Both the position numbers and the translations under genes were made by a program. The notes under the pieces are model-generated. The model was not told where the DNA came from, did no database searches, and saw nothing but the letters and a program-made list of their open reading frames with translations. Positions 41,696 through 52,824 of a DNA stretch of 64,000 bases are shown piece after piece. This DNA comes from Natronolimnobius sp. AArcel1. GTDB taxonomy: Archaea; Halobacteriota; Halobacteria; Halobacteriales; Natrialbaceae. Position 1 is the stretch's first letter; each line of letters begins with the position of its first letter. The DNA is taken from the NCBI RefSeq assembly GCF_011043775.1, contig NZ_JAAKXY010000005.1:124001-188000 (forward strand), read 5' to 3'.

Positions 41696-41998
41696 CTAGA
41701 GTTCGTCTTCCTCGTCGGATTCGTTCTCGTCTTCGTCATCGGTGTCATCATCGTCAACTTCTGTGTCATCGTCATCCTCGAGGCCGTCGTCTTCGTCACC
41801 GTTCAGATCATCATCGTCTGCATCGGTATCGTCTTCATCACCGTCCAGGTCGTCATCCATCCCGTCATCGTCGTCGATTTCGTTTTCGCCATCGACTGGC
41901 TCTTCATCATCGTCGTCCATACAGCCTGCCAGTGTTGCGACCGTACCAGCGCCGAGTACCGCTGTGAATCGTCGTCGGCTGAGGGTTGGTGCTTTCAT
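41696..41998 (-). CDS. Small, extremely acidic Tat lipoprotein
   Basis: 100 residues. Signal L-S-R-R-R-F-T-A-V-L-G with lipobox L-A-G-C, and then more than 70 residues that are almost only Asp and Glu with few Gly, Thr or Asn. No domain is visible. It may be a surface-charge or cation-binding lipoprotein, or just a decayed remnant of a larger lipoprotein. A minus-strand TATA-like CTTATTTAG near 42029 fits a near-leaderless start. Confidence 0.6.
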   Translation of the reverse strand: MKAPTLSRRRFTAVLGAGTVATLAGCMDDDDEEPVDGENEIDDDDGMDDDLDGDEDDTDADDDDLNGDEDDGLEDDDDTEVDDDDTDDEDENESDEEDEL

Positions 41999-42482
41999 AG
42001 TGTGCGTTTTGGGCGATGACGAATTGCTAAATAAGGCTGAGAGTCCGTTGCAGTGAATTATTTCGATTAAGACGAATTCCAACGCTTGCAGTCTTTGCAA
42101 CAGACACTTATGACAACCAACATCTTTTATTCGTTTTGTGATTCTCCTTCTCGTGGGGCTTACACTCACATTAATTGGCGTTCGACGGTTGTCGTGCCAT
42201 CAGATACACTGTCTGATTGCTGTACCCCACTCGAGTTTGTCTGTTTACTATCGGGTTTCCAACGCCGGTAGGATTGTCCCAGGAGTTTGTGTGGTGGGAT
42301 CTGTCGAGAGCCAACTCTGGCTCGTTTTTCCGGTGCTTTCGGGGCTTACCCCTCCCATAATGAAGTACTCGGGTATCTACGCAGTCGATAGCGTATCGTG
42401 TCCCACCGACTGCTGTCGCTGCCGATGGCGTTCAACTGCGACCGATCACCTCGGTGGCGACTCTCACTTCGCATTCCGACCG
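41999..42482. other. Intergenic region between the acidic lipoprotein and a phosphodiesterase-like gene
   Basis: No convincing gene. It holds the promoter of the lipoprotein (left edge). A TATA-like TCTTTTATTCG near 42123 could start a long leader for the plus-strand gene at 42483; the frame of that gene is open back to 42138, but the start at M-T-Q-P-N is preferred. Confidence 0.35.
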
Positions 42483-45285: not shown

Positions 45286-46830
45286 ATGTCGACCCGATCT
45301 CGGCGGACGTTTTTGCGGGGAGTCGCCGTAACGGGGGCAACGACACTGGGTGTTCTCTCGAGTGCAAGCTCACCAGCAGCAGCGTTTCACGAGAACTACG
45401 ACACTGTCGTCGATGTCGTCGACGCCGGAGCGGACAACACCGGTGGAGACTCGATTACGCCGGTTCTCGAGGAACTGCGGGCGGATAATACGGCGTTCGT
45501 CTTTCCGGAAGGGAGGTACTCTATGGACTCTCAGTTCCGATTTACCGGGTTCGAGAACATCGGCTTTTTCGGACGGGACGCGACGATTGTTCCTGCGCCG
45601 TACCACGAGTTCGATGGACCACGGTTCCGCCTGTTTCGGCTCGGCGTTTCGTACAACCCTGGTCAGCGCCTCCGATTCGAGGGATTCGATGTCGATCAGA
45701 CGGCGGCTGAGACAGGTATCCGCGTCATCGAGGCGACGATTGCACAGGATCTGCAGGTACGCAATATTACAATTGACGGCGAACACGACAGTGGGACGTG
45801 GGGTCCGGGCATGTTCGCGATCAGCGATCCGAACGGCCAGGGTGTCGTCGAACGCTTCCGTGCGCCTGATGGCGGCCGCCATGCTGATGACACGCCGAAC
45901 GCGGGGAATCTCTGGCGCGGCCCAATCGGGATCGAGGCGAATACGAACGTCGGTCACCTCGAGTTTAGAGACTGTGAACTTGGCGGCTTTCCGGATAACG
46001 GCTTGTATGCGGTCAACGAGGAGGGAACGGTCATCATCGACGGTGGCCGATTTGCAAACAGCAACGGCGCGAACGTCCGCCTCGGTGGGCAGGACAGCGT
46101 CATTCGAGATGCCACCGTCGCTGTTAACCGAACGCGGTCGTACGACAACAGCCAGCGAGGGATTCGCCTCGAGAACGGCGACAACCTCGGGATTTCTGAT
46201 GTCGATATCTCAATCTCGTCGCCACAGTCGACCAGCCACGCGATTTCGGTAATGAACACGTGCAGTCAGTCACGAGTCGACGGGGCCTCACTCGAACTCC
46301 GCGGTGACGATGTCAATCATGGAATCGTCGTCTCGCCTGATGCTGGGTTCTCTCATATCGTCGACTGTGATATCGTCCACGAAACGGCCGGTGGCTACCC
46401 GCTGTGGATCCGGGAGACAGACAAACAGGACCGCGTCCTGGTCGAACTCACTGACATTTCCGGTGAGGCTGGCGTCACCGGCGCTGGACTCCGTGACGGC
46501 ATCCGTTGTGGCCGGGATAACTGTCGATTCAGTCACGTAAACGTCGATCAGCTAGGCCGAAACGGTGCCGACCGCAATGGCCTCGTGATCACCGGTGATG
46601 ACGCTACTGTCTATAGAAGCGATCTCCATGCGAGTCAGTATCCGTACGTTGACCAGGGCAACGGCAATCACCTCCGGAATTCGACTGCTGAGTCCGCCAC
46701 TAGTTCTCTCGAGGGTGTCCGACTGTATCCCGATATCGAGGGTCCCGAATTGCGAGAAAACCACATCGGGAACGGAATCGATGATCTCGGTGCTACTGAC
46801 GTACTGGCGTGGCGCAATACAATCTCGTAG
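45286..46830 (+). CDS. Secreted right-handed parallel beta-helix protein
   Basis: 514 residues. A Tat signal (R-S-R-R-T-F-L-R-G-V-A-V-T-G) ends near A-A-A-F, after which come many short repeats of the beta-helix type (I-R-D-A-T-V, L-R-F-E-G-F-D-V, V-R-N-I-T-I-D-G, V-I-I-D-G-G-R-F-A-N-S-N-G-A-N-V). Pectate-lyase-superfamily folds of this kind bind or cut polysaccharides; I cannot identify catalytic residues. No lipobox, so it is probably secreted free. An upstream in-frame ATG at 45202 is rejected because it would precede the Tat motif by 28 residues. Confidence 0.8.
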   Translation: MSTRSRRTFLRGVAVTGATTLGVLSSASSPAAAFHENYDTVVDVVDAGADNTGGDSITPVLEELRADNTAFVFPEGRYSMDSQFRFTGFENIGFFGRDATIVPAPYHEFDGPRFRLFRLGVSYNPGQRLRFEGFDVDQTAAETGIRVIEATIAQDLQVRNITIDGEHDSGTWGPGMFAISDPNGQGVVERFRAPDGGRHADDTPNAGNLWRGPIGIEANTNVGHLEFRDCELGGFPDNGLYAVNEEGTVIIDGGRFANSNGANVRLGGQDSVIRDATVAVNRTRSYDNSQRGIRLENGDNLGISDVDISISSPQSTSHAISVMNTCSQSRVDGASLELRGDDVNHGIVVSPDAGFSHIVDCDIVHETAGGYPLWIRETDKQDRVLVELTDISGEAGVTGAGLRDGIRCGRDNCRFSHVNVDQLGRNGADRNGLVITGDDATVYRSDLHASQYPYVDQGNGNHLRNSTAESATSSLEGVRLYPDIEGPELRENHIGNGIDDLGATDVLAWRNTIS

Positions 46831-47407
46831 ACCTGTCCAACTTGGGTGCCGATGGCTCTTCTTCGTTCTCTGCTCGAACGTTTCCAACTACTCGTCCCAT
46901 CTCATCTTCGCTGTCTACTCTATCTCTCTTGGCTATTCTCCCTCTCGCATCTCTTTTACCTATTGTGACTATCTCACCTATTGTATCTGTCTCGTCTATT
47001 TCGCCTATCTCATCTACTTCGCTTGTCGCTTCTATTGTGACTCTTCATTTCCTTTTTCAGATGGCCGATCTAGCTGGACATATGTCTCCAATAGGTATCT
47101 TAGGTACTTTTTCTTCTGTAGCTATTGTGTCTATTGCATCTAATATGGCTATTGTACGTGCTCTATCTATCTTTTTTATTTCTCCTCTTGCCCCTTCACA
47201 GCGCGCTTCTACTCGACTTCCTCATCTGCAATAGGTGGCTTGTACAACCCATCTATTTCACCTATTGTATCTTTGCTACCTAAGGTACCTACCGAAGTTA
47301 GCTGCGGTATTATTAAGTGGAACCAATCATATTCTGTTATTGTCCGTTGAAACAGGCATTTGTGGAATAATAGGTGCCTATTCAAACCCTAGCGGGCAGC
47401 GCCAACA
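46831..47407. promoter_or_regulatory. Pyrimidine-rich tract with ACCTATTG iterons upstream of parA: candidate centromere and operator
   Basis: The plus strand from about 46860 to 47230 is strongly C/T-rich. ACCTATTG occurs exactly at 46958-46965, 46976-46983 and 47260-47267, and in reverse (CAATAGGT) at 47089-47096 and 47229-47236. Related TAGGTAC/TACCTA forms lie at 47101-47107 and 47277-47292. AATAGG-TG-CCTATT at 47369-47382 is a perfect palindrome overlapping a TATA-like GAATAATAG just before the ParA start. Iterated sites beside parA often serve as parS-like centromeres and as operators. A long hydrophobic open frame here is a by-product of composition. Confidence 0.6.
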
Positions 47408-48295
47408 ATGTCAGCAGCAACTCCCCCACGCGCTGTGAGCGTGGTCATCCTGAAAGGCGGTGTCGGTAAATCAACGACCTCGATGAATCTTGCGCGTCAG
47501 CTCGCTGAACGCGGGCGGGTCCTGTTTGCAGACCTTGACCCAAATGGGCACGCAACGAACGGCTTGGGGTTCACCGAGGCTTACCAGGCGACGGTCAATC
47601 TTGGAGACGTAATTCTTGAGGGTGATGCCACACCACACGATTTGATTCAACCAACTGATCACGAGTTCGACCTCCTCCCATCATCGAATACACTCGAGGA
47701 TGTCGAAAAGGATCTCGCGGGTGCAATGCAGGGGTCGGCACGAGTCAAGTCGAAGATTGTCGACCCATTGCTTGGTGAGGAATACGATTACGTCGTCTTT
47801 GATTGTCCAGCCTATCCGGGAATGTTAAACAACAACGCACTCGTCGCAACGGGGAACGTGATGATTCCGCTCGAGCCTGGTTCGAGTGCAATCGGTGGGT
47901 ACAAGCGAACGATGGAGCGACTGATCGAACCAGCGCGTGAGTATATCGACGTCGACGTCCTTGCGGTTGTTCCAAACAAACTCTCGGATCGGATCGATCA
48001 ACAGACCGAAGACCGTGAACTTCTCGAGAATCTCAACACGGCGACCTATGAGGTTAATCCTGGTCAGCCGCTTCAAGAGGCAGTCCCACCGTTTGCTCGG
48101 ATCACGAGCGAAGAATTTGAGGCGATCGACGCTGGTGAAATGACGACACCGAAGCCAGGAATTCGGCATCGATCGGCACTGTCGCGGTCGCTTCAACACA
48201 ACCAGCCGCTACAGGACTACGATCCCGAAAGTGACCAAATCGAGTATTACGAGGAACTCGCTGAAATCGTTGCGGGCGGAGGGATCGATCGATGA
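47408..48295 (+). CDS. parA: ParA-family partition ATPase
   Basis: 295 residues. Deviant Walker A K-G-G-V-G-K-S-T (16-23) with the signature lysine, followed by L-F-A-D-L-D-P-N-G-H-A-T and Walker B Y-V-V-F-D-C-P-A (about 118-125). These ATPases move plasmids or chromosome origins by dynamic binding to DNA. Its partner gene overlaps by 4 nt (ATGA). Eight kb from the orc1/origin block, it fits a segregation module for the same replicon. The iterons directly upstream are the likely site of action. Confidence 0.92.
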   Translation: MSAATPPRAVSVVILKGGVGKSTTSMNLARQLAERGRVLFADLDPNGHATNGLGFTEAYQATVNLGDVILEGDATPHDLIQPTDHEFDLLPSSNTLEDVEKDLAGAMQGSARVKSKIVDPLLGEEYDYVVFDCPAYPGMLNNNALVATGNVMIPLEPGSSAIGGYKRTMERLIEPAREYIDVDVLAVVPNKLSDRIDQQTEDRELLENLNTATYEVNPGQPLQEAVPPFARITSEEFEAIDAGEMTTPKPGIRHRSALSRSLQHNQPLQDYDPESDQIEYYEELAEIVAGGGIDR

Positions 48296-48852
48296 GCAAT
48301 CCATTTGATGATCTCAAGAGTGATGACGACGACTCAGCGTCTGAGACTGACTCGAGTGCGTCGTCAGCGACTGACACTGCCGATGCGGAGTCAACAGACG
48401 ACGCGTCGCCACCAACAGATGGACCGTCTGAATCTGAATCGCCAGCATCGTCGTCATCACCGTCACCATCGCCGTCGGTGCCGGAAGAGTCAACGCCTTC
48501 GCAGGATGAATCCACGAGCGTGGCTGCCGATAGTTCTGCTGACAACTCGTCGGAATCGTCACCAACAACTGAGACGGAAGATGAGGACACCGACGCGTCC
48601 GAGCCAGAGCCAGCCGAGACTGGTCCGGCGTTCGAGTACAGCGAAGTTCGGCAGAAACCCCTGTATGCACGTGATGAAACGTGGGACGAACTCGAGGATG
48701 AACTCGGCATTACAGTAATCCCGGAACTTCGTCGGATGGGAATTCGTGATGAGGAGACACGAGAAATTCACGATGCGGTCTTGAAAGTTGCAATCGAGCA
48801 TAGTGACGAACTGCCGGATGCAATCGCGGACGTTCGTCGGCAGTCTGAGTAG
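48292..48852 (+). CDS. Small acidic partner of ParA, candidate centromere-binding protein
   Basis: 186 residues. The first about 110 residues are low-complexity Ser/Asp/Glu/Pro, predicted disordered. The last about 75 form a compact conserved-looking part: F-E-Y-S-E-V-R-Q-K-P-L-Y-A-R-D-E-T-W-D-E, L-R-R-M-G-I-R-D-E-E-T-R-E-I-H-D-A-V-L-K-V-A-I. It does not look like canonical ParB. As the second gene of a parA operon it is the best candidate for the DNA-binding adaptor, with a helical C-terminal domain. Function is inferred from position. Confidence 0.7.
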   Translation: MSNPFDDLKSDDDDSASETDSSASSATDTADAESTDDASPPTDGPSESESPASSSSPSPSPSVPEESTPSQDESTSVAADSSADNSSESSPTTETEDEDTDASEPEPAETGPAFEYSEVRQKPLYARDETWDELEDELGITVIPELRRMGIRDEETREIHDAVLKVAIEHSDELPDAIADVRRQSE

Positions 48853-48883
48853 TTGTCCCCGCCAGCGCGTTCGTGTACGCGTA

Positions 48884-48912
48884 CTCTTATCGGCTCTCCG
48901 TACATCTGTACG
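48884..48912. promoter_or_regulatory. Promoter of the GH95 gene with CGTACA-TC-TGTACG operator
   Basis: A TATA-like CTCTTAT (48884-48890) lies about 28 nt before the GTG start at 48916, so the transcript is probably leaderless. A perfect inverted repeat CGTACA-TC-TGTACG (48899-48912) occupies the space between TATA and start, where a bound protein would repress. The same CGTACA half-site occurs in the same position at the dehydrogenase promoter (54526-54531). Confidence 0.5.
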
Positions 48913-48915
48913 ACG

Positions 48916-51240
48916 GTGTCAGTAACACCACCTTCGGGACCGGACGCTACACTGTGGTACCGAGAACCAGCAAGCGGCCCCCTCGAGTCGTTGCCAGTCG
49001 GGAACGGACGACTTGGTGCGTTACTCACGGGAGACCCAGCATGTGAACAGATCGTATTGAATGAAGAGACGCTGTGGGCCGGCGATGGAAGTCCTCGATG
49101 GAACGATTCGGCAAATGAACAGCTATCTGCTGTTCGAGATCTTCTCTTTGACGGTGCCTACGAGGAAGCACAGGCTCTCGCTGATCGGCATCTCATGGGA
49201 GAGCCAGTTACACTGCACCCCTATCAGAAATTTGGTGAACTCACCCTCGAGTGTGGCCATGAGTCTGTCGAGGCCTATTGTCGGGAACTAAACCTCGAGA
49301 CTGCAATTGCGACAACGACGTATACGGTTGATCAGGCAACAATCACACGTGAGTCGTTCGTCTCTGCTCCGGATGATATCATTGTCCTTCGAGTCGACTG
49401 TGATCAAGTCGGAGAACTCTCTGCATCGTTGTCGCTTGACCGTAGCCAAGACGCCCGAGCCACTGCAGTCGGCAACGAACTCATCCTCCGCGGACAGATC
49501 TTGAACCTGCCGCGATCTGAAGACGAACGCTACAGCAGAACCGTTGATGGGTGGGGCCTTCGGTTTGAGTCCTGCGCTCGTGTCTCTGTCGAGGGTGAGG
49601 CTGCGACAATTAGTACGGATGGAGACCAACTCCAGGTCGAGAACGCAGATTCGTTCTCTGTTCATATCGCTGCTGAAACTGACTTCCAGACGGAGGCGCC
49701 CACTGACGCATGCAGTACCACTCTGAACGCTGCCGAGCGCCCCTACGACGATATCCGGGCCGCACATATCGCTGAACACCGAGATCGGTTCTCTCGAGTG
49801 TCGCTAGATCTTGGTGACCCACCCGCAGAACCGACCGATGAGCGTCTCGAAGCCGTTACAACTGGCCGCGCCGATCCACATCTATCGGCGCTCTATTTTC
49901 AGTACGGGAGATATCTGCTTCTTGCAAGTTCCAGGCCGGGATGTCTCCCTGCGACGCTGCAAGGGATCTGGAACTGGGAGTTTGAACCACCTTGGAACTC
50001 CGGCTATACGACGAATATCAACCTCGAGATGAATTACTGGTTAGCAGAACCAGGGAATCTTCACGAGTGTGTTGAGCCACTTGTATCATTTACTGAATCA
50101 CTCTCTGAAACCGGACACAAAACAGCACAAAAGCACTACGACTGTCGTGGCTGGGTCCTACATCACAATACTGACCTCTGGCGACATACCACTCCCGTTG
50201 ATGGTGCCCAATGGGGCATGTGGCCAACAGGTGCTGCCTGGCTCTGTCGGCATCTGTGGGAGCGATATGAGTTTTCCAGAGACGAGACCTTCCTTCGTGA
50301 AACCGCGTACCCCGTTATGAAGGCAGCTGCTGAGTTTTTGGTCGACTTTTGCGTAAAAGACGACGGTGTCTACGTCACTGCTCCGTCTACCTCTCCCGAA
50401 AACCCGTATACTGCCCCTGATGGGAGCGAGGTTACGATTGCGATTGCCCCATCGATGGACACACAACTGATAACTGACCTTTTCTCTCACTGTATTGAGG
50501 CAACTGAAACCCTGGAGTGTGACTCACAGTTTGGTGCGACTCTCGAGTCGATGCTCGCTGATTTGCCACCGCTGCAGATCGGCGCACACGGCCAGTTACA
50601 GGAGTGGCGACACGACTATACGGAAGCTGAGCCTGGTCACCGACACATTTCTCATCTGTACGCTCACCATCCCGGTGACCAGATCACGCTCCGTGAGACA
50701 CCAGCACTCGCAGATGCGGTACGCACGACACTCGAGCGTCGACTTGAACACGGTGGTGGACACACTGGATGGAGTCGCGCATGGCTAATCAATCAGTTTG
50801 CGCGACTCGAAGCGGGGGAGCACGCCCATGAACACCTGTTAGAACTGCTCGCTGGATCTACTGCCCCAAATCTGTTTGATCTGCACCCGCCCTTCCAGAT
50901 TGACGGGAACTTCGGGGGTGCTGCGGGAATTCTCGAGATGCTGGTACAGAGTCACGCGGGTGAATTACACCTTCTTCCAGCACTTCCAGACGCGTGGGAT
51001 GCTGGTTACATCGAAGGAATTCGTGCCCGTGGGGGCTTCGAGGTCGACCTTGAGTGGGATGATGGACGTATTCAATCCGCCCAGATCACATCTGAGTGTG
51101 GTGAGCACTTACGGGTCAGAACACGTACCGACTGCGATGTGTTCGTCGATGGCGACTCTGTTTCGCCGACCCGTCCCGAAACAGGCGTTGTTGCACTCGA
51201 GACTGGATGTGGCGAGACCGTGACGCTCCAGAGACGGTGA
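48916..51240 (+). CDS. GH95-family alpha-L-fucosidase-like glycosidase
   Basis: About 774 residues. The N-terminal beta domain opens [23 protein letters not shown], a GH95 signature. The (alpha/alpha)6 barrel has [16 protein letters not shown], containing the two Asn of the GH95 mechanism, T-S-P-E-N-P-Y with the catalytic Glu region, and D-G-N-F-G-G with the Asp. Related enzymes cut 1,2-linked fucose or galactose. No signal peptide is seen, so it is probably cytoplasmic and acts on imported oligosaccharides. GTG 48916 was chosen from the TATA spacing; the TTG at 48853 is unlikely. Confidence 0.88.
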
Positions 51241-51298
51241 TGTTCTTTCCCCGCCGGAACTGTCATGCGGTACACTTCTCACCAAATTAATCGCTCCC

Positions 51299-51306
51299 TT
51301 TATTAT
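51299..51306 (+). promoter_or_regulatory. TATA box of the GH51 gene
   Basis: TTTATTAT is centred about 28 nt before ATG 51331, which indicates a leaderless transcript and decides the start in favour of M-A-D-A-T over the upstream in-frame ATG at 51265. Confidence 0.55.
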
Positions 51307-51330
51307 CTGTGTGCGAAAATAGATCGCTAC

Positions 51331-52824
51331 ATGGCCGATGCAACAGTAACTGTACATAGTGAAGCAGTTGTTGGACATATTAACCCTGAATTCCACGGGC
51401 ACTTTTCAGAACACCTTGGACGGTGTGTTTACGAGGGTCTCTGGCACAGCGACAGCGCTGATGAGGATGGCTATCGTGAGGACGTTCTTGAACTGATCAA
51501 GGACCTCGATATTCCTGTTCTTCGATGGCCCGGTGGCTGTTTCGCTGATGACTATCATTGGGAGGATGGCGTTGGCCCACAAGAAGAGCGTCCACGGCGA
51601 CGAAACCTCTTCTGGGCACAGGGTCCGGAGGAAGTTCCCGAAGAGTCCAACGCCTTTGGTACCGACGAATTCCTGCAGTTCTGTGAAGCGGTTGGCACGG
51701 AGCCGTATCTGGCTGCCAACGTTGGCTCTGGCGATCCACAGGAGGCTGCTGACTGGGTCGAATATTGTAACTACGACGGCAACACGGAACTCGCAAACCG
51801 CCGACGCGAGAACGGTCACGACGACCCCTACGAAGTGAAATTCTGGGGACTTGGAAACGAAAACTGGGGCTGTGGTGGCCGAATGAGTCCTGAACAGTAC
51901 GCCCGCGAGTACCGGCGCTTTGCCACCTACGTTGGCACCCAGTCCGGACTGATGTTCGAGCACGACCTCGAGCTCATTGCCTGTGGCTTTGAACACCACG
52001 AGTGGAACCGCCGCTTCTTGGAGGAGATCGCAGACAGTTCGTGGGGCCCAGAGTTCCCGCTTGATCACCTTACCCTGCATCACTACTACGGCCAGACGAT
52101 GACGGTCTCGGAGTCAGACGAAGATGACTACGATGCGTTCCTCGCTGATGCACTCGAGACTGACGGTCACATCGAAGCGATCGCCGGCGCAATTGACGCT
52201 ATCGCGACGACCCGTGATATCGGTGTCATCGTCGACGAGTGGGGTGCCTGGCATCCCGAAGCAGTCTCGGAAAACGGCCTCGAGCAGCCAGGAACGGTTC
52301 TCGATGCACTCTCTGCAGCGGCTGTGCTCGACATTTTCAACGACCACAGTGACGTGGTGACGATGTCGAACATCGCACAGACGATCAACGTCCTGCAGTG
52401 TCTCGTCGAGACGAACGCGGACGACGCATGGGCACGCCCAACGTACCACGTGTTCGATTCCTATGCACCGCACAAGGGCAACGATGCGATTCAGACGACG
52501 GTCGATACGCCAGCCCGCGACCTCGAGGATGACCGCGAACTCCCACTCGTGCAGGGATCGGCGTCGACTGATGGTGAGGAGACGTTCATCTCGCTCACGA
52601 ACCTCGATTGCCGTGACGAACAGACTGTTTCGGTGGCTGTCGAGGGCGAGGCACCAGAGTCGGTCGAGGCGACCCTGCTGTTTGGCGACCACGAGCCTAG
52701 CGCAACGGTTACTCCGGACAACGCCGCTGAGTTCGAACCGGAGACCACCGACGTCGATGTCGATGGGAACACGATCAGTGTTGATCTCCCACCAGCGACA
52801 GTCGCGACCCTGACACTCTCGTAA
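51331..52824 (+). CDS. GH51-family alpha-L-arabinofuranosidase
   Basis: 497 residues. The retaining mechanism residues are clear: acid/base Glu177 in G-L-G-N-E-N-W-G and nucleophile Glu303 in V-I-V-D-E-W-G-A-W-H. The motif L-R-W-P-G-G-C-F-A-D-D-Y (about 65-76) lines the substrate pocket in this family. A beta-sandwich completes the C-terminus. No signal peptide, so likely cytoplasmic. It releases arabinofuranose from oligosaccharides. It follows the GH95 gene by 90 bp but has its own promoter. Confidence 0.92.
   Translation: MADATVTVHSEAVVGHINPEFHGHFSEHLGRCVYEGLWHSDSADEDGYREDVLELIKDLDIPVLRWPGGCFADDYHWEDGVGPQEERPRRRNLFWAQGPEEVPEESNAFGTDEFLQFCEAVGTEPYLAANVGSGDPQEAADWVEYCNYDGNTELANRRRENGHDDPYEVKFWGLGNENWGCGGRMSPEQYAREYRRFATYVGTQSGLMFEHDLELIACGFEHHEWNRRFLEEIADSSWGPEFPLDHLTLHHYYGQTMTVSESDEDDYDAFLADALETDGHIEAIAGAIDAIATTRDIGVIVDEWGAWHPEAVSENGLEQPGTVLDALSAAAVLDIFNDHSDVVTMSNIAQTINVLQCLVETNADDAWARPTYHVFDSYAPHKGNDAIQTTVDTPARDLEDDRELPLVQGSASTDGEETFISLTNLDCRDEQTVSVAVEGEAPESVEATLLFGDHEPSATVTPDNAAEFEPETTDVDVDGNTISVDLPPATVATLTLS

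Follow-up and report, generated by a model that had tools for sequence, protein, structure and literature searches.

The 64-kb stretch of Natronolimnobius sp. AArcel1 DNA analysed here (the window) carries a two-gene operon made up of parA and a small partner gene, preceded by an intergenic tract that is bounded by the end of a beta-helix gene (46830) and the start of parA (47408). The features of this locus are collected in Table 1. The ParA protein has no extra N-terminal DNA-binding domain and is a member of the ParA/Soj Walker-type ATPases: it matches the Pfam families AAA_31 (107 bits, cut-off 27) and CbiA (50.4 bits, cut-off 25.4), and its solved relatives are Soj/ParA proteins. Its score against the NCBIfam equivalog NF041546 ParA_partition (59.1 bits) lies below the cut-off of 180. 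Every one of the 48 close-group loci shows a 4-bp overlap between parA and the partner gene, and the gene that follows the operon varies between loci. Downstream of the operon in the window (48853-52824) are two large ORFs which, judged from reading the sequence, resemble glycoside hydrolases and are probably unrelated cargo.

Table 1. Features of the parA-partner locus, in positions of the window (a dot marks features given without strand).
Feature	Position	Strand	Remarks
9-bp iteron array, register A	46885..47172	.	32 unit positions, 17 with exact in-phase CTA/TAG core
9-bp iteron array, register B	47232..47294	.	adjoins the predicted parA promoter at its end
TATA-like element TTATTAAG of the parA operon	47310..47317	+	predicted; orthologues keep a TTAAG immediately behind their last iteron
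Leader stem, conserved	47342..47397	+	5' arm GTCCGTTGA (47342-47350), 3' arm AGCGGGC (47391-47397), palindrome enclosed
Palindrome AATAGGTGCCTATT	47369..47382	.	two cores overlapping at 4-bp offset; kept in orthologue leaders
parA	47408..48295	+	Walker-type partition ATPase, 295 aa; KGGVGKS at residues 16-22
Partner gene	48292..48852	+	186 aa; NPFDDL N-terminus, acidic linker, conserved C-terminal domain (about 77 aa); putative adaptor that would bind the centromere

The tract in front of parA is 70% pyrimidine and aligns when set out in 9-bp rows. The earlier note had reported at least five copies of ACCTATTG in both orientations within 310 bp of a pyrimidine-rich, gene-free tract, and both observations hold. 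Exactly five copies occur in the whole window (46958+, 46976+, 47089-, 47229- and 47260+), all of them between 46958 and 47267, with 0.67 expected window-wide, and a raw repeat search already made copies at 9- and 18-bp spacings visible. As the repeat unit, which the note took it to be, ACCTATTG proved too narrow. The five copies are part of a larger contiguous array of 9-bp iterons with a symmetric core. In register A, 17 of 21 CTA/TAG cores share one phase of nine; they point forward (nnnCTA) for the most part, and the reversed cores at 47092 and 47101 are included in the count. Register B, with its phase moved by 5 bp relative to register A, holds cores at 47232 (reverse), 47250, 47259, 47277 and 47286.

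Over the 500 bp before parA, the 9-bp periodicity reaches a z of 9.9 against Markov shuffles. Once codon periodicity is subtracted, it ranks as the top 9-bp array of the 64-kb window (0.211 vs 0.088 for the next best) and of the 567-kb contig (z = 9.8 vs 4.6). The top raw 9/18-lag signal of the window, near 41702, belongs to an Asp-rich low-complexity ORF on the minus strand (41696-42169), which is a coding repeat and not a set of iterons.

Consensus units across loci pointed to a 6-bp core, TASSTA, combined with a 3-bp spacer; the core is symmetric and reads TACCTA, TAGGTA or TAGCTA. Other branches carry units of the AGGTACCT/CACCTAAGG types, TTCGTACGA, ATTGTAGAA/ATTTCTACA and ATTTCTATA. To place the cores relative to one another, centre-to-centre spacing was determined for cores in forward (ACCTA) and reverse (TAGGT) orientation in the close group of loci. 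Multiples of 9 bp account for 243 of the 303 pairs on one strand, 56 of the 68 forward-reverse pairs and 140 of the 162 reverse-forward pairs; a minor class sits at +4/+5. In the parA coding sequence, used as a control, the motifs were too rare and yielded no pairs. Forward and reverse cores share a common dyad on the 9-bp pitch. Cores can be flipped without loss of register, which is what reading of each unit by a protein with two-fold symmetry (a dimer) would predict.

ParA orthologues were drawn from two sources, genomes within the family and named genome contigs, which gave 47 further distinct loci, mostly from Natrialbaceae together with Haladaptatus and Halovivax. With all loci turned the same way, the region upstream of parA contains ACCTATTG or CCTATTG in nearly all of them, and the majority have it in both orientations. 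Forty divergent loci were fetched as well. We then surveyed repeat lags over the 500 bp before parA in the 87 parA-partner loci whose upstream region was long enough. In 84 of the 87 the top lag is 9 (48 loci), 18 (32) or 27 (4), the remaining three having 5, 6 or 22, and the 9-bp periodicity exceeds a z of 3 in 85, with loci L058 and L136 as weak members. The earlier note had proposed to look for iterons beside orthologous parA genes, and there they are clearly kept. Identity over the 87 loci is 0.35 at lag 9 vs 0.24 at lags 8 and 17. At lag 12 it is not raised (0.25), so the array signal is not codon periodicity.

The pyrimidine-rich tract, as well as the stronger raw 9/18-lag signal inside the Asp-rich ORF, could suggest that the repeats are functionless and arose through slippage, or from coding or low-complexity sequence. 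We consider this extremely improbable, as the flat lag 12 is joined by a signal that persists after codon-periodicity correction, by flipped cores that stay in dyad register, and by the class-wide recurrence of the array at the equivalent place. Coding periodicity and chance were rejected as a general explanation by the repeat-lag, z-score and dyad-register tests.

Three chromosome-like loci, L173, L174 and L177, have no 9-bp array (z of 0.1, 0.4 and -0.3). They belong to a divergent branch with the N-terminus MPDDNRFAGL, and two of them lie on chromosome-sized contigs. At least in that branch the module works differently or the site has been lost, and these loci are possibly a domesticated form. 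In a Mantel test, array divergence correlates with the distance between ParA proteins (Spearman 0.61) no less than with that between partners (0.53), so that sequence alone cannot name the reader of the array.

Four replicons were scanned whole, namely the own contig, two Natronorubrum plasmids of 55 kb and 115 kb, and pNMAG02. On all four, the array beside parA ranks first among 9-bp arrays (z of 9.8, 8.1, 8.5 and 13.5). Extra arrays with matching unit were found 3-6 kb from parA at three loci (L039, L043 and L068), and pNMAG02 has one near 103.5 kb, about 97 kb from its parA-side array. Within the 4.56-Mb genome of the window's strain, the ACCTATTGNNNCTA pattern occurs once, at this array, and five of the seven matches of a three-unit pattern fall here as well; five other ParA-like genes of the genome, which have different neighbours, are not accompanied by an array. 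The module is present at 79 places in 74 plasmid records, or about one per replicon, and in the plasmid records listed the partner is annotated as 'hypothetical protein' or is absent from the annotation.

Some genomes hold more than one such system. Three co-resident systems in genome G151 have units of the AGGTACCT, AATTTCTATA and TACTnnAnCTACT types, the two in G367 have CCTATTG vs TCGTACGA, and the two in G156 have units of the AGGTACCT vs ATTGTAGAA types. Different units in co-resident systems, as seen by inspection of this small sample, are what incompatibility avoidance would predict.

The partner protein is made up of a conserved NPFDDL N-terminus, a long acidic low-complexity linker of variable length and a conserved C-terminal domain. 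This layout, with the acidic linker, recurs throughout the close group (48 of 48 loci), and relatives detected with the C-terminus profile occur in 196 of the 391 haloarchaeal genomes sampled. The partner has no family match in Pfam, NCBIfam or PHROGs. Searches of 51 family members against Pfam and NCBIfam, with E up to 10, gave scattered chance-level matches and no ParB family, and the partner profile matched nothing when run against the sequences of the PDB. The earlier note was therefore right that the second gene is not a canonical ParB; it represents a conserved family without a name. By these searches of Pfam, NCBIfam and PHROGs, the module falls outside canonical ParABS, for which a ParB-type second gene (CTPase/HTH) and parS would be expected.

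An AF2 monomer model of the partner domain, based on 51 aligned domains, has a pLDDT of 89 and contains helices at residues 19-39, 47-60 and 62-76, with the conserved, non-helical residues 1-18 leading directly into the first of them. Foldseek searches with this model gave no PDB or viral fold match and only weak helical rows (Z of 3.1 at best); since the protein is probably a dimer, a single-chain model makes a weak query, and this null result does not count against a known fold. A different ParA operon of the same genome (L004, C10:31208-32406, with a contig end near) encodes a 136-aa partner with a sub-threshold match to RHH_7. Profile alignment of the partner with this L004-type family by hhalign covers 59 columns (E of 2e-4, probability 47%), below accepted significance. 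Taken with the core symmetry and the short repeat pitch, this match makes us lean towards a ribbon-helix-helix-like dimer as a working guess for the partner domain; in that fold, strand-helix-helix chains pair and place their two strands in the major groove. A bolder and more doubtful reading, though a possible one, is that the partner is a new archaeal centromere-binding family with its own fold, which would coat contiguous 9-bp sites as part of a general haloarchaeal plasmid-segregation machinery, with units that diversify for coexistence and a structured leader RNA that adds expression control.

Between the array and parA lies a short leader. The earlier note had found a palindrome here and let it overlap the parA promoter. 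The palindrome AATAGGTGCCTATT is present, but the TATA-like element TTATTAAG in front of it places it in the 5' leader, probably downstream of the promoter. It combines two cores, offset by 4 bp as in the minor class. Its exact form recurs in about half of the orthologue loci, nearly always 36-48 bp before the start codon. The 4.56-Mb genome holds two occurrences, both on this contig; the second (L143 2802-2815, C5:474801-474814) is intergenic, without an array, and lies between amidohydrolase-like and regulator-like genes.

From the TTAAG element to the start codon, the orthologue leaders follow the order GTCCGYTGA, palindrome, AGCGGRC, with GGAG next in many. The outer elements form a closing stem of eight pairs, in which 94% of cells are paired vs 33-68% in slid versions. 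Three pairs are changed on both sides, a count that was reached in 79 of 500 shuffles, and the covariation score and paired cells were matched by none of the 500. Leader folding gives a z of -2.5 in the window, and of -4.2, -5.5 and, in one case, only -1.9 in relatives. An Rfam search of 46500-49000 returned nothing of note and left the stem unmatched. The palindrome thus lies inside a structured leader, and selection on RNA and selection on DNA both fit this arrangement; RNA control of the parA operon by the stem is possible.

The array abuts the conserved TATA-like element, and together with the palindrome in the leader this raises the question of whether it is an operator only, through which the partner or ParA regulates parA expression without a role in segregation. 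We regard this as unlikely. The one-register array spans 288 bp here and several hundred bp in relatives, which exceeds what an operator needs; arrays with matching unit are found away from parA on some replicons; and the module count is about one per plasmid replicon. Furthermore, plasmid pSM19035 provides a precedent in which one array type serves both on promoters and as centromere (PMC9499535).

An orc1 gene lies 6.6 kb upstream of the module in the window, and orc1 also neighbours the module on two Haloferax plasmids, pHME505 (L182) and pSVX82-2 (L183). The repeats could accordingly be replication-origin iterons bound by an initiator such as Orc1/Cdc6, which we hold to be very improbable. 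Of 32 flanked loci, a few of which have truncated flanks, only 10 showed an Orc1 homologue, whereas the array accompanies parA and partner nearly everywhere; no prominent array is found at orc1 in this window; and the unit varies with the parA-partner branch. Linkage to an orc1 origin, part of the earlier proposal, therefore stands for this window and, on the evidence of the 32 flanked loci, was rejected as a general feature.

Set against these alternatives, the locus is best read, from its anatomy, as a type Ib-like partition module. Its short ParA (295 aa, P-loop at residues 16-22) is without an N-terminal DNA-binding domain, and repeats upstream of parA are present in 84 of 87 loci, with the centromere role of these arrays as a candidate one. 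The module likely serves DNA partition of a large haloarchaeal replicon, with the array at 46885-47294 as candidate centromere. The earlier note's partition system with a new adaptor and a new site thus retains its conserved array and its unnamed non-ParB partner family and loses its repeat unit, its palindrome position and its general orc1 linkage.

We infer the following course of events. Partner dimers would bind the array, one on each symmetric 6-bp core every 9 bp, and neighbouring dimers, side by side, would coat the array DNA. The NPFDDL tip, carried on the long acidic flexible linker, would reach ParA, which would sit on nucleoid DNA with ATP and have its ATPase controlled by the tip. 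Replicon copies would thereby be moved or kept apart. Binding of the partner at the array probably also represses the parA operon (autoregulation), because the array extends to the parA TATA box and the leader contains the two-core palindrome.

The module invites comparison with several known systems. ParF-ParG of TP228 is a type Ib system, with a small ParA without N-terminal DNA-binding domain, a small downstream partner with disordered N-terminus and a site upstream of parA. The present module shares the small ParA and the small downstream partner, whose N-terminus is presumably flexible, and has a candidate site upstream of parA; it differs in unit and pitch, its linker is much longer and acidic, and its partner is without RHH family match. 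In pSM19035, the centromeres consist of 7-10 contiguous 7-bp repeats that overlap promoters, each repeat being bound by one RHH dimer, and at least four contiguous repeats are needed for ParA activation (PMC9499535). Like this delta-omega-parS system of Firmicutes, the haloarchaeal module combines ParA with a small DNA-binding partner (binding here being presumed) and has contiguous short iterons, direct and inverted, over partition-gene promoters, with several arrays on some plasmids (PMC9499535). The pSM19035 repeat is a 7-bp non-palindromic WATCACW, in contrast to the 9-bp unit with symmetric TASSTA-type core described here (PMC9499535). Further differences are the long acidic linker, a C-terminal domain without detected sequence relation, the archaeal host and the conserved leader stem. 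By its anatomy, the present module should work like that of pSM19035.

Among archaea, AspA-ParB-ParA of Sulfolobus pNOB8 and SegAB of Sulfolobales likewise represent ParA-based segregation with a non-canonical DNA-binding partner (PMC5120986, PMC12284271). The former is a three-gene cassette, unlike the two-gene operon found here. The contiguous 9-bp array beside parA and the different lineage distinguish the present module from these systems. Closer at hand are other ParA operons of haloarchaea, whose partner weakly resembles RHH_7 (L004, alignment A4) and which have the same operon layout with a linker and a small C-terminal domain. In both partner types this domain begins with a strand-like P[ML]Y motif, with a weak profile match. 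In contrast to the present module, the one L004-type copy in this genome has no 9-bp array before parA.

A 2016 review lists molecular segregation systems from Sulfolobales only (PMC5120986). The open-access literature, searched chiefly for haloarchaeal and archaeal partition and with subscription papers and preprints mostly outside the scope, does not describe the arrays and the partner, and in the literature found the segregation of the many haloarchaeal megaplasmids is hardly studied. The array is very probably the 'centromere' by which haloarchaea share out large plasmids at division, as its sequence and distribution suggest. This would provide a defined candidate centromere, an adaptor family present in about half of the sampled class and a possible specificity code between unit sequence and protein branch, and it opens plasmid partition and incompatibility in archaea to direct tests. 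Haloferax mediterranei, which is genetically tractable, has one family member on its plasmid pHME505; the arrays on this plasmid and on pSVX82-2 of Haloferax lucentense are strong (z of 10.7 and 10.5) and are built from ATTGTAGAA-type units.
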